A stretch of 64,000 nucleotides of DNA, from contig JAEUKE010000124.1 of the NCBI GenBank assembly GCA_016794345.1, forward strand, positions 62,001-126,000, written 5' to 3'. Source of the DNA: Myxococcales bacterium (GTDB taxonomy: Bacteria; Myxococcota_A; Polyangia; Polyangiales; Polyangiaceae). The stretch's first letter is position 1. Each line of letters begins with the position of its first letter. Shown piece after piece: positions 31,635 to 38,285 of the stretch. The position numbers and the translations under genes were made by a program. The notes under the pieces were generated by a model, which saw only the letters and a program-made list of their open reading frames with translations, did no database searches and was not told the DNA's origin.

Positions 31635-32168
31635 ATGGCCGATCCCAAGAAGCTCCTCGAAGACGCGACGGCGAAGGCCATGCTCAGCGCGGGGAAGGAC
31701 GCCGCCCGTCGTGCAGCGGAAGATCTCCTCTCGTCCGACGAGGACCGAGCGGCCAAGCAGGCGGAGGACGAAGGCGCTTCGAAGCGGCGGCGGACGAAGC
31801 TCATCGTGGGCGGCTTGCTCGGGCTCTTCCTCCTGATCGGCGTCGTCGGCTTGGTCCTCTCGTATTGGCAGTATTTCCTGCTCGCCGGCCTGCTCGGCGT
31901 CGCCGGCGTGTACGGCTACTACCGGCTGCGCTCCCGCCGCGCGGATAAGAAGGCCGAGGAGAAGGCGCCGGCGAAGGCGGAGCCCGCGCGCGTCGAGGTC
32001 GCGCCGGAGCCGGACGCGGCGGAGACCGAGGCGGAGGCGCGCCTGGCCGCGGCGCGGGCGAGGGAGGCGCGCGAGCGTGACGCGCGCGCGCTTGCCGAGG
32101 CTCGGGCTGCGGAGGCGCAGGCCGTCGAAGACGAGCTCGCGGCGCTCAAGGCCCGTATCAAGAAGTGA
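31635..32168 (+). CDS. Two-helix membrane protein with coiled-coil tail
   Basis: A 177-residue protein from ATG 31635 (MADPKKLLEDATAKAML). A charged N-terminal 55 residues precede two transmembrane helices (LIVGGLLGLFLLIGVVGLVL and YFLLAGLLGVAGVYGYY). The last 90 residues are Ala/Glu/Arg-rich with long helical repeats (AEARLAAARAREARERDARA), a probable cytoplasmic coiled coil. Nothing catalytic is seen and I do not recognise a family. It ends 19 bases before the LysR gene and may be co-transcribed with it. Confidence 0.75.
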   Translation: MADPKKLLEDATAKAMLSAGKDAARRAAEDLLSSDEDRAAKQAEDEGASKRRRTKLIVGGLLGLFLLIGVVGLVLSYWQYFLLAGLLGVAGVYGYYRLRSRRADKKAEEKAPAKAEPARVEVAPEPDAAETEAEARLAAARAREARERDARALAEARAAEAQAVEDELAALKARIKK

Positions 32169-32187
32169 TTCGGGGCACGTCGGGATC

Positions 32188-33105
32188 GTGAAGGACGACT
32201 ACGGGCGCGACCTCGATCTGAACCTGCTCCGGGTGTTCCTCGTCGTCGCCGAGAAGCGGAGCGTGACCGCGGCGGCGTCGCACCTTTATCTCACGCAGCC
32301 CGCCGTGAGCGCCGCGCTCGGCAGGCTGCAGCGAGCCATCGGTCAGCCGCTCTTCGCGAGGCAGGGCAGGGGGCTGACGCTCACGGCTCGCGGCTCGCGG
32401 CTCTTCGCCGCCACCCGACCGCACCTCCGCGCGCTCGTCGAGGCGGCGCTCGCCCCTGCCGCGTTCGATCCCAAGACGAGCGAGCGCACCTTTCGTGTGG
32501 GGCTCTCCGACGCGAGCGAGGCGTGGCTCTTGCCCGGGCTCCTCACGGCCCTGCAGACCGAGGCGCCGCGGATCCGGGTGATCTCGCTGCAAGTGCAGTT
32601 CCGGACCGTCGCCGATGCGCTCCTGTCGCGCGCGGTCGACGCGGCCGTCACGGTGGCCGACGAGCTCCCCTCGAGCATCCGGCGCGAGCCGCTCTTCACC
32701 GGGAGCTTCGTGTGCCTCTTCGACCCGAGGCACGTCCGCGTCGGGCGGAGGATCTCCGAGGCGGAGTACTTCCGGCGGGAGCACGTCGTGGTCTCGTACA
32801 ACGGCGACCTCCGGGGGATCGTGGAGGACGAGCTGAAGAAAGCTCGGCGCGTGCGCTGCTCGGTCTCGAGCTTCGCCAACATCGGTGCCGTGGTGGACGG
32901 GTCGGCGCTGCTCGCCACGGTGCCGCAGATCGTCGCGGAAGACGTTCGGTCCGTGCGGCCTCACCTGCGGACCGCGCGTCTGCCTTTCTCCTTCGCGCTC
33001 CCGCCGGTCGAGCTGCTCTGGTCCGCGGCGGACGACGACGACGAGGCAGGCCGGTTCGTGCGGGAGAAGATCGCGGCGGTCGCGAAGCAAGCGACGAGGC
33101 GATAG
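32188..33105 (+). CDS. LysR-family transcriptional regulator
   Basis: A 305-residue regulator with a GTG start at 32188. The winged helix-turn-helix occupies residues 9–67 (LNLLRVFLVVAEKRSVTAAA, LTQPAVSAALGRLQ, GQPLFARQGRGLTLT), followed by a type-2 periplasmic-fold effector domain (FRVGLSDASEAWLLPGLL, AVDAAVTVADELP). It lies upstream of the P450–cNMP fusion, 128 bases away on the same strand, and 1.7 kb from the AKR/OYE promoter that contains a T-N11-A box. Either could be its target. The effector is unknown. Confidence 0.9.
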   Translation: MKDDYGRDLDLNLLRVFLVVAEKRSVTAAASHLYLTQPAVSAALGRLQRAIGQPLFARQGRGLTLTARGSRLFAATRPHLRALVEAALAPAAFDPKTSERTFRVGLSDASEAWLLPGLLTALQTEAPRIRVISLQVQFRTVADALLSRAVDAAVTVADELPSSIRREPLFTGSFVCLFDPRHVRVGRRISEAEYFRREHVVVSYNGDLRGIVEDELKKARRVRCSVSSFANIGAVVDGSALLATVPQIVAEDVRSVRPHLRTARLPFSFALPPVELLWSAADDDDEAGRFVREKIAAVAKQATRR

Positions 33106-33233: not shown

Positions 33234-35438
33234 ATGCAGACGATCGCGTCAGGGACGAACACCTCGCCGCTCGCTCCGCGCAGCACACAGGCGCCGCTCG
33301 TCCCGGGCGCGCCGCTGATCGGATCGGGCCTCGCCCTGTTCAAGGACCCTTATCGGTGGTGGGCGAGGCAATACGAGCGGTTCGGACCCGTGTTCCGCGT
33401 CCGCCTGCCGATCGAGGGGGGCGTCTGGACGGTGCTCGCGGGAACGGAGGCGAACGCCTTGCTCGCGCGGGACGGCGCGCGGCTCTTTTCGCAGGCCATG
33501 ACCTATCCCAGGGCGAAGGACGTGCTGGAGACGCCGCTGCACCCGAGCATCACGGAGGGAGAGCTGCAGGTCCACCTGAAGCGGCAGATCGCCCCTGGCT
33601 TCTCGCGGCACGCGGCGACCCCACACCTGCCGAAGATGGCGGCGATGGCGCGCGACTACGTGCGTGGGTGGATGCCGGGCCAGCGCCTGAACGTCGTGTC
33701 CGAGATGGCGCGGCTCGGGATCAACTGCATCTCGATCTTCGCGACCGGCGAGGAGGTCGGCCACGAGACGGACGCGATCGCTCGTTATGCGACCGTGTTC
33801 ACCGGCGTCATCGCGATGAGCTGGCCGTTCTCGATGATGAAGGTGCCCGCGGTGAACGCCGCGCGACGCGGCCTCGACTCGATGATCGCGGAGCGGCTCG
33901 CGTCGCACCGCGCGAGCCCACCCGGCCATTCGCGCCCGCCCGACTACTTCGACTTCCTCCTCGAAGGAACGCTGCCGGGCGGCGAGCCCCTGCCGGAGCG
34001 CGTGCGCGTCGTCTTCGGCCAGATCCCGTTCAAGAACATGGGTGTCTATGCGGGCCGGGTGATCAACCACACGCTCTACCAGCTGGTGAAGAGGCCCGAG
34101 GTGCTGGCAGCCGTCCAGCCCGAGATCGACGCCGTGTTCTCGGGCGAGCCGACGCCACACGCGCTCCTCGGGTTGGAGGGCCTCCGCGCGACGATCAAAG
34201 AGACGCTCCGCGTGCTGCCGATCGCAGTGGCGCTGCAGCGGACCGTGTGCGAGCCGTTCGAGTTCGGTGGGTATCGATTCGACCTGGGTGACCGGCTCTT
34301 TTTCCCCATCTCGGTCCCTCATTTCCTCGCCTCCTGTTTCCCCGAGCCCGAGCGCTTCGATATCGGTCGCTTCCTGCCCGGCCGGCTGGACGACATCCCG
34401 GCGCACGCTTACAAGCCGTTTGGCCTCGGGAACCACGGCTGCGTGGCGGCCGGCCTGTTCGAGATGATCACGACCCTCGTGCTCGGGACCATCCTCCACG
34501 AGTGGCGGCTGCACGCGCCCTACGAGCTGCGCACGATCGTCGACGCGCTGCCCGGCCCTTGGCCCTGGCACGAGATGCGCGTGGTCGAGCGGCGGCGCCC
34601 GCGCGCGTGCCCGACCGTGGCGCTCGCCTCATTGGGGCACGAGCCCGGGACGATCGAGCACCTCTTCGAGGTGGTCGATCGCGCGGAGCTCCGCCGCCTT
34701 CGCCCAGGCGAGGTCTTATTTCGCCAGGGCGACCCCTCCGACCTGCTCTACCTCGTTCAAGAGGGAACGGTCCGCGTGGAGCGGCGAGACGACGACGACC
34801 GAGAGGCGCGCCCGCTCGCGTCCCTGGGGGCGGGATCGGTCGTCGGCGAGATCGGCATCCTCCATGGAGTCCCGCGCACGGCGACGGTCATCGCCGAGAC
34901 CGCCGTCACCGTGCTCGCCGTCACACGGGAGCGCTTTCAGACGCTCGCCGTCGAGACGGACGTCACCGCCGAAGAGCTGGCGTCGCTCGCGCTTCGGAGG
35001 CACGCCTCGTCGCTCCTCACCACCGTGCTCGAGTCGGGCGCGCAGGTCGACTTCGACGGGGTGGAGGGGCTCTCGGCCGTCGACGCGGCACCGGGCGAGG
35101 TGCTGGTACGCCAGGGGGAAGCCGCGCACCACTTCTACGTGCTCGCTCAGGGCGAGGTCGAGGTCCTTCATGAGACACCGGACGGGCGCCCCGTGAAGCT
35201 CGCGACGCTGCGCGCTCCGGACTGCTTCGGAGAGATCGGGCTGCTCGAGGGCCGCCCGCGCACGGCCACGGTGCGCGCGGGCCAGGGGGGCGCGAGAGTG
35301 CTCGCGCTCGATCGCCACGCGTTCCATTCGTTGATCGCAGGCGCCGACGCGCGTACGGACCTCGCGTCGCTGGCGACCCAGCGACTGGCGAGCCAGGTGT
35401 CCCCCCGGCGGGCTTCGCCGCCGAGCGCGCCTCGCTGA
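33234..35438 (+). CDS. Cytochrome P450 fused to two cyclic-nucleotide-binding domains
   Basis: A 734-residue fusion. Residues 1–460 are a P450: PGAPLIGSGLALFKDPYRWW, the K-helix ETLR (E323, R326) and heme loop FGLGNHGCVAAG with ligand Cys403. The I-helix, which normally carries (A/G)Gx(E/D)T for oxygen activation, reads NMGVYAGRVINHT at about 268–280, so the acid/Thr pair is absent. Residues ~475–570 and ~597–705 are two cNMP-binding domains with PGEVLFRQGDPSDLLYLV, GEIGILHGVPRTATV, and PGEVLVRQGEAAHHFYVL, FGEIGLLEGRPRTATV; both keep the Glu and Arg that contact cyclic nucleotides. There is no HTH, so it is not a CRP-type regulator. I infer a ligand-gated or heme-linked redox/isomerase enzyme. 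The ATG at 33234 is chosen because the P450 N-terminus starts there. Confidence 0.88.
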   Translation: MQTIASGTNTSPLAPRSTQAPLVPGAPLIGSGLALFKDPYRWWARQYERFGPVFRVRLPIEGGVWTVLAGTEANALLARDGARLFSQAMTYPRAKDVLETPLHPSITEGELQVHLKRQIAPGFSRHAATPHLPKMAAMARDYVRGWMPGQRLNVVSEMARLGINCISIFATGEEVGHETDAIARYATVFTGVIAMSWPFSMMKVPAVNAARRGLDSMIAERLASHRASPPGHSRPPDYFDFLLEGTLPGGEPLPERVRVVFGQIPFKNMGVYAGRVINHTLYQLVKRPEVLAAVQPEIDAVFSGEPTPHALLGLEGLRATIKETLRVLPIAVALQRTVCEPFEFGGYRFDLGDRLFFPISVPHFLASCFPEPERFDIGRFLPGRLDDIPAHAYKPFGLGNHGCVAAGLFEMITTLVLGTILHEWRLHAPYELRTIVDALPGPWPWHEMRVVERRRPRACPTVALASLGHEPGTIEHLFEVVDRAELRRLRPGEVLFRQGDPSDLLYLVQEGTVRVERRDDDDREARPLASLGAGSVVGEIGILHGVPRTATVIAETAVTVLAVTRERFQTLAVETDVTAEELASLALRRHASSLLTTVLESGAQVDFDGVEGLSAVDAAPGEVLVRQGEAAHHFYVLAQGEVEVLHETPDGRPVKLATLRAPDCFGEIGLLEGRPRTATVRAGQGGARVLALDRHAFHSLIAGADARTDLASLATQRLASQVSPRRASPPSAPR

Positions 35439-35555
35439 CCGCCGACACCTCGACGCTTGGCAGGGGCTGCGCGCTGCAGGGCCAAGCGCCTCCGCGCGCG
35501 AGTCCCTCTCCCTGCCGCCGCAGCGACGCTTGCGATACGCTCGTGCCGACGCGCG

Positions 35556-38285
35556 ATGACGGACAAGACCTGGGCGACGCCGGCGAGCGTGCCGCACAAC
35601 GTCGTTTCGCCCCGGACGAGGTTCGTCGGCCGAGACGCGGAGCTCTCCATCCTCGACGACGCGCTCGTCGAGTCACGCCTGGTGACCGTCGTCGGCGCGC
35701 CGGGCGTGGGCAAGACGCGGATCGCCAAGGAGCTGGCGCTGGCGCGGGCGGCCGACCGCGCGCCGCGCTTCCACGGCGGGGTGTGGTGGTGCGATCTCTC
35801 CGGCGCGAGCGACGCCGAGGACGCGCTCGCTCTGATCACCGCTGCGATCCCGGAGCCCACGCGCGCGAGCGCGGCGACCTCGGGCGGACCCACCCTGCTC
35901 CTCGTGCTCGACAACTTCGAGACCGTGGTCGGAGACGCCGAGCGCGTCGTGTCCGAATGGCTCGAGCGCGCTCCTTCGTCTCGCCTCCTCGTGACGTCGC
36001 GCGAGCGGCTGCGGGTTGCGGGCGAGCGCGTCGTCGAGCTGTCTCCGCTCGCGTTGCCGGAAGAGACGAGCGACCCGAGCGCGAGCCCCGCCTACGCGTT
36101 GTTCGTGGACCGGGCGCACCTCGTCTCGGGGAGCGCCACGTTCGACGAGAAGCAACGCCAGGCCATCGCGCTCGTCGTCCGCGCGCTCGATGGGTTGCCC
36201 CTCGCGATCGAGATCGCCGCCGCGCGCACGCGCCTCTTCGCGCCGACGCAGATCCTCCGCTCGCTCTCGCGGGAGGGCGAGCTGCTCGGCCCGGGCGCGA
36301 GCGTCGTCTCCCGGGGGACGCGCACGCTCGAGGAGACCTTCGCGTCGTCGTGGGAAGGCCTCACGCCGGAGGAGCGCGTCGCGCTCGCGCACTGCACGGT
36401 GTTCTCCGGTGGTTTCGACTGGGAGGCCGCGCGCGCGGTCATCCGTGTCGACGGCGACGGGACGCCCTCGACGCTCGACCTCCTGCAGAGCCTCCGGGAC
36501 CGCTCGCTCGTCGCGACGCTCGAGCTCCCGTCGGGCGAGCTCCGGATGTCGCTGCTCACGACGGTGCGTGCCTTCGCTGCGTCGAAGCTCGACGCGAGCG
36601 TGCGGGTCGAGCTCGAGCGCGCCCACGCGCGCCACTTCCTGGCGCTGATCGGTGTCTCCCCCGAGGCCGACGCCAAGCGAGGGCGCGCGACCATCGCGCT
36701 CGAGCGCGAGAACCTGACGGTGCTCGTGTCACGCGCGGTGGCCGACTGTCGGCCGGCCGACGCGCTGCGCGCGGCCATCGCGCTCGCCGCCCTCGGCTCG
36801 TCGCTGTCGTATTCGTGGTCGCTCCGCTTGCTCGAGGAGGCCCTCGCCGTCGCGGAGGGCCGAGCCCCGCCCCGGCTCCTCGGCTGGGCCCGGGAGGCGC
36901 GCGGCTCGCTCCTCCGGTTCCTGGGTCAGACGCGGCCCAGCCTCGAGGAGCTCGAGCGCGCGCTCGAGCTCGCGCGACGCGAGGGCGACCGCGCGCTCGA
37001 GGCGCGGGCGCTGACGGGCCTCGGCAACGGCAAGGCCGTGCTCGCTGAATGGAGAGCCGCGCGCGAGCACCTCGAGGCCGCGCGCGAGCTTCACCGAGAC
37101 GTGGGCGACCGCCTGTCGGAGGGCCGCGTGCAGACGATGATGGCCGCGGCGTCCTACAACCAGGACAACCTCGAAGAGGCCGCGTCGGAGCTCGACGCCG
37201 CGCTGGCGCTCCAGCGCGCCGAGCGCGATCGGCCGTTCGAGGCCATGAGCGTGACGAGCGCGGGGATCGTCGCGCTCGCGCGGGGCGAGCACACGCTCGC
37301 TCGCGCGCTGCTCGACGAGGCGGTCGCGCTCCATCACGATCTGGGCGACCGGCATTGGGAAGCCGTCACGAGGGGCTATCGCGGCGCGCTCGAGCTCGAT
37401 CTCGGCGAGCTCGAGGCCGCGCGCGGCGCGCTCGAGCCCGCCGTCGCCACGCTGGGGCAGCTCGGGGTTCACCGCGCCGAGGCCATCGCGCTCGGGCACC
37501 TGGGTCACACCGCCGCCCTCCAAGGCGCGCTCGACGAAGCGGCCGCCCACTATCGGGCGGCGCTCGGCTGGCATCGGCTGACGAGCCCGGACTACGAGGG
37601 GCTCATCCTCGTGGCGCAGGGCTGCGTCTTCGCGCTGCGAAGCGATATCGCCTCGGCGCTCGCGGCCTTCGAGCGCGCGGAGGAGGCGCTTCGGGCGTTT
37701 CATCGGCCGTCTTTCGTGGGGGCCATCCACCTCGGCCGTGCGCTCGCCGACGTGTCGCTCGCCGAGCAAGCGTTCGCCGCGGGCGACGCGCAGCGGACGG
37801 CCGAGCTCGAAGGCCGGGTCGCGCGGGCCGTGGCGAGCGCGGAGCGCGCGGGCGCGGCGCGCTCGGTCGACTCGCGCGCGCTCGCGCGCCTGCTCCTGCA
37901 CGCGCGGGCACGACTGGCCGAGTCCAAGGCGAGCGCGGCTCGGCGCCAGAGCCCGGCCTCGCTCGTCGTCCACCCGGACGGTCGCTGGTTCCGGGCGCCG
38001 AACGCCGGCTCGGTCGTCGACCTGACGAAGCGGCCGTCGCTGCAGCGCATGCTCCGAGCGCTGGTGGAGCGACGGAGCGCGGGCCCGGGCGAGCTCACGG
38101 TCGCCGATCTTCTCGAGTGTGGCTGGCCGGGCGAGAAGGTCTTGCCGGAGGCGGGGCAGGAGCGGGTCTACACGGCCGTGTCGACCCTGCGACGGATGGG
38201 GCTCAAGTCCGTCATCGTCCGCCGCGAGCGCGGCTACGCGCTCGACCCCGAGGTGGACGTCGTGGCCTCGCTCCTCGAGCCCTGA
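35556..38285 (+). CDS. STAND-ATPase/TPR regulator with C-terminal winged helix
   Basis: A 909-residue AfsR/MalT-like signalling ATPase. Residues 20–330 form an NB-ARC/AAA module: RFVGRDAELSILDDAL, Walker A GAPGVGKT (47–54), Walker B LLLVLDNFE, sensor LLVTSRERL, GLPLAIEIAAARTRL. A winged-helix/linker region follows (TLEETFASSWEGLTPEER), then about 400 residues of TPR-like helical repeats. The C-terminal ~75 residues (ELTVADLLECGWPGEKV, VYTAVSTLRRMGLKSVIVRR, GYALDP) look like an OmpR-type winged-helix DNA-binding domain, an unusual C-terminal position for this class. ATG 35556 is used. It stands 117 bases downstream of the P450 fusion on the same strand; no other gene follows before convergent lipoproteins. 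Confidence 0.85.
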   Translation: MTDKTWATPASVPHNVVSPRTRFVGRDAELSILDDALVESRLVTVVGAPGVGKTRIAKELALARAADRAPRFHGGVWWCDLSGASDAEDALALITAAIPEPTRASAATSGGPTLLLVLDNFETVVGDAERVVSEWLERAPSSRLLVTSRERLRVAGERVVELSPLALPEETSDPSASPAYALFVDRAHLVSGSATFDEKQRQAIALVVRALDGLPLAIEIAAARTRLFAPTQILRSLSREGELLGPGASVVSRGTRTLEETFASSWEGLTPEERVALAHCTVFSGGFDWEAARAVIRVDGDGTPSTLDLLQSLRDRSLVATLELPSGELRMSLLTTVRAFAASKLDASVRVELERAHARHFLALIGVSPEADAKRGRATIALERENLTVLVSRAVADCRPADALRAAIALAALGSSLSYSWSLRLLEEALAVAEGRAPPRLLGWAREARGSLLRFLGQTRPSLEELERALELARREGDRALEARALTGLGNGKAVLAEWRAAREHLEAARELHRDVGDRLSEGRVQTMMAAASYNQDNLEEAASELDAALALQRAERDRPFEAMSVTSAGIVALARGEHTLARALLDEAVALHHDLGDRHWEAVTRGYRGALELDLGELEAARGALEPAVATLGQLGVHRAEAIALGHLGHTAALQGALDEAAAHYRAALGWHRLTSPDYEGLILVAQGCVFALRSDIASALAAFERAEEALRAFHRPSFVGAIHLGRALADVSLAEQAFAAGDAQRTAELEGRVARAVASAERAGAARSVDSRALARLLLHARARLAESKASAARRQSPASLVVHPDGRWFRAPNAGSVVDLTKRPSLQRMLRALVERRSAGPGELTVADLLECGWPGEKVLPEAGQERVYTAVSTLRRMGLKSVIVRRERGYALDPEVDVVASLLEP

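Follow-up and report, generated by a model that had tools for sequence, protein, structure and literature searches.

The gene described here encodes a cytochrome P450 that continues, in the same reading frame, into two cyclic-nucleotide-binding domains (CNB1 and CNB2), apparently a new combination of known domains that is accompanied by a distinct I-helix clade. It lies in a window of 64,000 nucleotides, the whole stretch of DNA that was analysed, from a Myxococcales genome (G000; 9.66 Mb, 98.2% complete). Tentatively, we infer from the sequence that the protein is a soluble haem-thiolate P450 that is gated by a cyclic nucleotide (cNMP) and that carries out an accessory step of sterol or triterpenoid tailoring, an inference that extends to binding, gating, substrate and chemistry alike.

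The layout of the protein (Table 1) bears out most of what a preliminary description of this DNA had proposed. That description claimed a complete P450, and the ETLR K-helix and Cys403 within FGLGNHGC were indeed found, in a region matching the Pfam P450 family PF00067 with 105.6 bits against a cut-off of 22.8. It also claimed two sensor domains in one frame and no helix-turn-helix (HTH). Pfam detected two cNMP-binding domains (PF00027, 156.9 bits together) and, besides these and the P450, no HTH family anywhere in the protein, in which only about 30 residues are left after CNB2; a CRP/FNR-type transcription factor was ruled out by the absence of an HTH after the CNBs. Third-position GC content, which stays between 0.84 and 0.96 in the P450, the linker and both CNBs, shows the frame to be coding along its whole length. 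The open frame 5' of the ATG has the pattern of a different reading frame, and this speaks for a start near 33234. The P450 hallmarks E323-R326, H401 and C403 are conserved in the relatives. Two regulator genes flank the fusion gene; no LysR gene was seen among the neighbours of its relatives, and co-transcription with the downstream AAA/NACHT-TPR gene, which by eye carries a C-terminal winged-helix-like segment, is possible.

Table 1. Features of the fusion gene and its neighbours (window coordinates).
Feature	Positions	Strand	Basis and remarks
LysR-family regulator, 5' of the fusion	32077..33105	+	Pfam HTH_1 and LysR_substrate
Whole gene, P450-CNB-CNB fusion, 734 aa	33234..35438	+	ORF (ATG at 33234, stop at 35438), translation, Pfam, continuous coding GC3
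Cytochrome P450 domain, residues 12-455	33267..34598	+	Pfam PF00067, phmmer, Foldseek
I-helix pentad N268-M269-G270-V271-Y272, replacing A-G-x-[D/E]-T	34035..34049	+	Alignment of 31 P450s, profile to 6mi0
K-helix ExxR, E323-T-L-R326	34200..34211	+	Sequence; invariant in clade A
Haem-binding loop FGLGNHGC (F396-C403), thiolate ligand Cys403	34419..34442	+	Sequence; Cys invariant in relatives
Linker between P450 and CNB1	34599..34673	+	Poorly conserved; 3/25 positions identical to Enhygromyxa
CNB1, residues 481-580, phosphate-binding cassette VVGE539IGILHGVPR548TATV	34674..34973	+	Pfam; E/R in 5/6 fused proteins
CNB2, residues 610-702, phosphate-binding cassette FGE667IGLLEGRPR676TATV	35061..35339	+	Pfam; E/R in 6/6 fused proteins
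AAA/NACHT-TPR regulator, 3' of the fusion	35457..38285	+	Pfam; true start probably ATG near 35553

A search for the same domain order was successful. Full-length fusions with 50-52% identity were found in Enhygromyxa salina SWB005 and SWB007 by a scan of GTDB contigs, and a phylum-wide search of 377 genomes yielded three deeper ones from Myxococcota (G157, G137 and G114). In two assemblies of Nannocystaceae type, the contig scan detected the P450 without CNBs (one of these loci, L042, lies at a contig end and begins within the gene), and G001, a genome from the same genus, likewise encodes the P450 alone, with 58-60% identity. Absence of the fusion from close relatives, which the preliminary description had named as a refutation, was thus not borne out: two E. 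salina genomes and deeper lineages have it, although three close relatives have only the P450. The group of nearest relatives, denoted clade A, has six members, of which three lack the CNBs, implying that the P450 can function without them. Short tails containing cysteine were seen on solo relatives, namely an N-terminal GCPFHAF at L010:1388-2944 (minus strand), N-terminal cysteines at L041:5929-7323 and a C-terminal GRCPFAAAHSI at L042:2-1237; the last of these resembles the Enhygromyxa fusion linker, as if the CNBs had been lost.

The CNB pair is the part of the protein on which the proposed switch depends. The cNMP contacts predicted are E539 and R548 in CNB1 and E667 and R676 in CNB2, in agreement with the earlier claim that both sensor domains keep their Glu and Arg, and both residues are retained by CNB2 in all six fused proteins and by CNB1 in five, the exception being G137, whose CNB1 has Ala in place of Glu. 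By comparison, 11/11 of the comparable TPR-CNB-CNB proteins of the phylum have, at the position of the CNB2 Arg, another residue or no aligned one (the mis-cut row L036 being left out). This difference favours the notion that cNMP binding is retained in the fusion, as do the better conservation of CNB2 than of the P450 towards the three deep relatives (42-46% versus 32-37% identity), the lack of conservation of the linker towards the relatives and the presence in the source genome of six genes of the class III cyclase family (PF00211). It could be argued instead that the CNBs no longer sense a cyclic nucleotide and serve dimerisation or docking, with a constitutive P450. The Ala in CNB1 of G137 and the solo relatives that do without CNBs fit such a role, and CNB-fold proteins independent of cAMP do exist (trypanosome PKA-R entries appear among the fold matches), but all six fused proteins hold on to the CNB2 Glu and Arg despite divergence in the linker and elsewhere, and it is the P450-free tandem-CNB relatives that do lose the CNB2 Arg; a purely structural role is thus regarded as unlikely, if still worth serious consideration. 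A preference for cGMP, suggested by the Thr that follows the Arg (PRTATV), was rejected because Enhygromyxa has Val and Pro there, and no selectivity between cAMP and cGMP is claimed. The TPR-CNB-CNB proteins are themselves widespread, with about 450 residues, a TPR-like N-terminus and two CNBs, the second without the phosphate-binding Arg (L013-L015, L017, L020, L022, L025, L026, L030, L034 and L038).

In the cNMP-gated model, the C-terminal CNB pair would be an on-board allosteric switch of a soluble bacterial P450. Either cAMP or cGMP would bind the pair, most surely at CNB2, and the ligand-bound CNBs, through their helices, would shift against the P450, thereby opening or closing the access of the substrate, the redox partner or the oxidant, much as PKA-R, EPAC and the mycobacterial Pat act on their catalytic parts. 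The full version of this model, a sterol-tailoring P450 switched by cAMP or cGMP, with Tyr272 on the distal side and controlled post-translationally with no change in expression, is, as a whole, somewhat unlikely.

The second peculiarity of the protein resides in its I-helix. When 31 P450s were aligned with L-INS-i, this helix showed no gaps, and the columns of the AGx[D/E]T motif are occupied by N268-M269-G270-V271-Y272. Two other approaches gave the same register, namely a count back over 19 residues from the R-P-E motif and a profile alignment against 6mi0, a solved CYP51. Consequently, the acid/Thr pair is absent, with V271 at the acid column and Y272 at the Thr column. The preliminary description was right in that the pair is lost and that the letters MGVYA are there (269-273), but its register was off by one residue: the residue aligned with the Thr is not the Ala that it implied but Tyr272, the pentad being NMGVY (268-272). 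Eight P450s that form a clade with support 100/99 all read KN[M/A]G[V/I]Y here. However, G114 is fused to CNBs and yet has an ordinary AGMDT helix, indicating that the fusion and the change in the helix were separate events. Because the catalytic Thr is replaced by Tyr272 and the acid by Val or Ile, the proton path would be unlike the textbook one, and the activation of O2, if used, would have to draw protons from the substrate or from ordered water. The NMGVY helix thus offers a natural test of O-O chemistry with a Tyr replacing the proton-relay Thr.

It had also been suggested that such a helix may point to an isomerase or an enzyme acting without O2. CYP7A1 and CYP8B1 are sterol hydroxylases that use O2 and NADPH. 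Since both also lack the pair and yet are monooxygenases, its loss alone does not denote O2-independent chemistry, and the suggestion is not supported by the helix. The corresponding explanation, in which a P450 switched by its CNBs would not activate O2 but would rearrange a lipid (endo)peroxide or use a peroxide, as prostacyclin synthase, allene oxide synthase and CYP152 do, must nevertheless be weighed, given that the pair is missing from the entire eight-member clade. By the same spacing, prostacyclin synthase reads ATQGN and CYP7A1 reads ASQAN; prostacyclin synthase has Asn287 at the axial (Thr) position (PMC13049297), and amide, nonpolar or Thr residues are tolerated there in peroxide-isomerising P450s. 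Against this, a Tyr preceded by Lys-Asn differs from the substitutions in CYP8A1, CYP74 and CYP152, the monooxygenases CYP7A1 and CYP8B1 show the same loss, and the annotated neighbouring genes were not seen to include a dioxygenase or lipoxygenase. The peroxide chemistry is judged unlikely. In sequence, the protein shows no special kinship to the peroxide-isomerising CYP8A1, CYP74 and CYP5A, the nearest solved P450s being CYP51. A kinship to prostacyclin synthase based on the string NMG was considered and rejected, as by spacing the NMG of that enzyme lies about one helical turn away.

The conserved Tyr at the distal Thr position, found throughout the clade, could also mean that the protein is a pseudoenzyme or a sensor that works through its haem. 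Tyr272 would then sit over the iron, catalysis would be absent and a signal might pass from the haem to the CNBs or in reverse, and the two regulator genes that flank the fusion gene would suit this role. The ExxR motif, the haem loop and the P450 core are intact, however, and two solo forms adjoin a biosynthetic gene, which makes a sensor highly improbable.

Further information on the P450 came from comparisons with solved structures. In a phmmer search, residues 15-427 matched CYP51 structures as the nearest solved P450s, and a Foldseek search with an AF2 model of the P450 domain, of modest quality (mean pLDDT 65, pTM 0.72), likewise placed CYP51 and BM3 nearest (E down to 5e-14). For the CNB half, also modelled with modest quality, the nearest folds were CNBs like those of the PKA and PKG regulatory parts. 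The AF2 model of the full protein, built with five sequences, was poor (pLDDT 53, pTM 0.48), and the arrangement of the domains and their interfaces was therefore not read from it. The identity with CYP51 is only about 20%, which makes it a weak guide to the substrate, and the CYP51-type I-helix AG[H]HT is replaced by NMGVY in the fusion.

The genomic context also bears on the substrate. Squalene epoxidase is present in 6/6 clade-A genomes versus 53/192 in the class, a contrast inflated by shared ancestry, and the source genome holds a squalene epoxidase-oxidosqualene cyclase gene (SE-OSC), a squalene synthase-3beta-HSD gene, a C5-desaturase-like gene and an ERG2-like gene. Within about 30 bases 3' of the solo P450s at L041 (G145) and L042 (G338), on the same strand, lies a gene of the FA_hydroxylase superfamily that by its motifs resembles a sterol C5-desaturase. 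E. salina makes cholesterol and 25-hydroxycholesterol, the responsible C-25 hydroxylase being not known (PMC10202945), and neither are the P450s that decorate nannosterols (PMC10152446). On the other hand, no sterol gene stands beside the fusion gene in the window, the P450 is present in only 4/29 Nannocystaceae genomes, most of the squalene-epoxidase-positive ones being without it, and no squalene epoxidase was seen in the genomes of the deep fused relatives G157 and G137, where the substrate may differ. These three observations disfavour a core role in sterol synthesis, and the enzyme is most likely, as far as its sequence and distribution suggest, an accessory oxidase of sterol or triterpenoid tailoring. 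The fusion gene would then be a candidate for one of the missing sterol-tailoring oxidases of myxobacteria, a matter that bears on the origin of sterol synthesis.

Several sterol loci are worth describing in their own right. On contig C217 of the source genome, a single frame of 1142 aa comprises a squalene epoxidase and a cyclase of the squalene-hopene/oxidosqualene type (L082:5456-8884, minus strand); long frames around the epoxidase match also occur in G001, G016, G345, G367 and several f5 genomes, suggesting a conserved epoxidase-cyclase fusion. Near it, on the same contig and strand, a squalene/phytoene synthase is fused to a domain of the 3beta-HSD/epimerase type (800 aa, L082:10073-12475). 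On contig C204, a C5-desaturase-like FA_hydroxylase gene is located directly 5' of a gene for an ERG2/Sigma1-receptor-like isomerase, a late-sterol pair (L081:7838-9386, plus strand). In both E. salina strains, a Ser/Thr kinase-TPR gene precedes the C5-desaturase-like gene in the same orientation (L084:4307-7219 and L083:8198-11158), an adjacency that hints at a possible signalling control of sterol genes.

Regarding the history of the protein, the CNB pairs of all six fused proteins group together (support 97/95) and are separated from the phylum's TPR-CNB-CNB proteins, although the group also takes in L036, a long-branched row that was wrongly cut out. In a left-out test, the CNB pair of G114 scored 180.8 bits, and no CNB pair from outside the P450 fusions exceeded 142.2. 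Both results favour a single ancestral fusion, followed by loss of the CNBs in the three solo relatives, over a repeated, independent joining of P450 and CNBs. The fusion itself is real and no artefact, as it recurs in distant relatives; the chance that an assembly or sequencing error joined two genes, a concern given the 321 contigs and 5.16% estimated contamination of the source genome, is negligible, since the same fusion occurs in five further genomes, including those of two E. salina strains, and the coding signal is uninterrupted. Among plasmid records, 259 were similar to the query and none covered 80% of it, the best match being a solo Planktothrix P450 with a canonical GGMET within a triterpenoid-like cluster, and a scan of viral contigs gave one weak P450 fragment. 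That cluster, on plasmid p2 of Planktothrix agardhii (L067:2272-17264), contains four P450 genes, one of which encodes the nearest plasmid relative of the fusion enzyme, as well as genes for a squalene/phytoene synthase, a cyclase-like protein, a Rieske protein and an SDR.

P450s are usually regulated by way of their expression, their substrate or their redox partner. If true, a cNMP sensor within the enzyme itself would represent a new mode of P450 regulation and a ready-made ligand-controlled biocatalyst. Known P450 fusions involve reductases, ferredoxins and peroxidase/dioxygenases (e.g., PMC4486971), and the open-licence literature yielded no description of one joined to cNMP-binding domains. 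The nearest solved P450s by sequence and fold, the CYP51 enzymes, act in bacterial sterol metabolism, as the fusion is proposed to do, but their identity with it is low and they keep AGHHT; the source genome holds a separate P450 (L003) with a CYP51-type AGHHTSS motif. The CYP51-ferredoxin fusion of Methylococcus (6mcw/6mi0) also has a C-terminal fused partner, which is, however, a ferredoxin and not a sensor. CYP7A1, CYP8B1 and CYP8A1, two sterol hydroxylases and one peroxide isomerase, equally have an I-helix without the acid/Thr pair, but in these eukaryotic enzymes the Thr column holds Asn (ASQAN, ATQGN) and not the Tyr of the clade, and they lack CNBs.

For the sensor half, the closest functional parallel is the mycobacterial Pat (Rv0998/MSMEG_5458), a bacterial enzyme with a fused cNMP-binding domain in which cAMP binding relieves autoinhibition (PMC8556138). 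Among NCBIfam models, that of Pat fits the CNB part best, with a score short of its cut-off, but Pat is an acetyltransferase with a single, N-terminal CNB. PKA-R and PKG have tandem CNBs with the Glu and Arg of the phosphate-binding cassette and match the C-terminal half best in both fold and sequence, whereas they are eukaryotic kinase regulators devoid of a haem enzyme. In family 2B encapsulins, a cNMP-binding domain is attached to a protein whose gene often accompanies terpenoid genes (PMC8346489), although this is a shell protein rather than an enzyme and has a single CNB. Finally, the TPR-CNB-CNB proteins of Myxococcota (e.g., L013-L015) contain the nearest non-P450 CNB pairs among the loci compared, but have a TPR-like N-terminus where the fusion has its P450 and have lost the Arg of CNB2.
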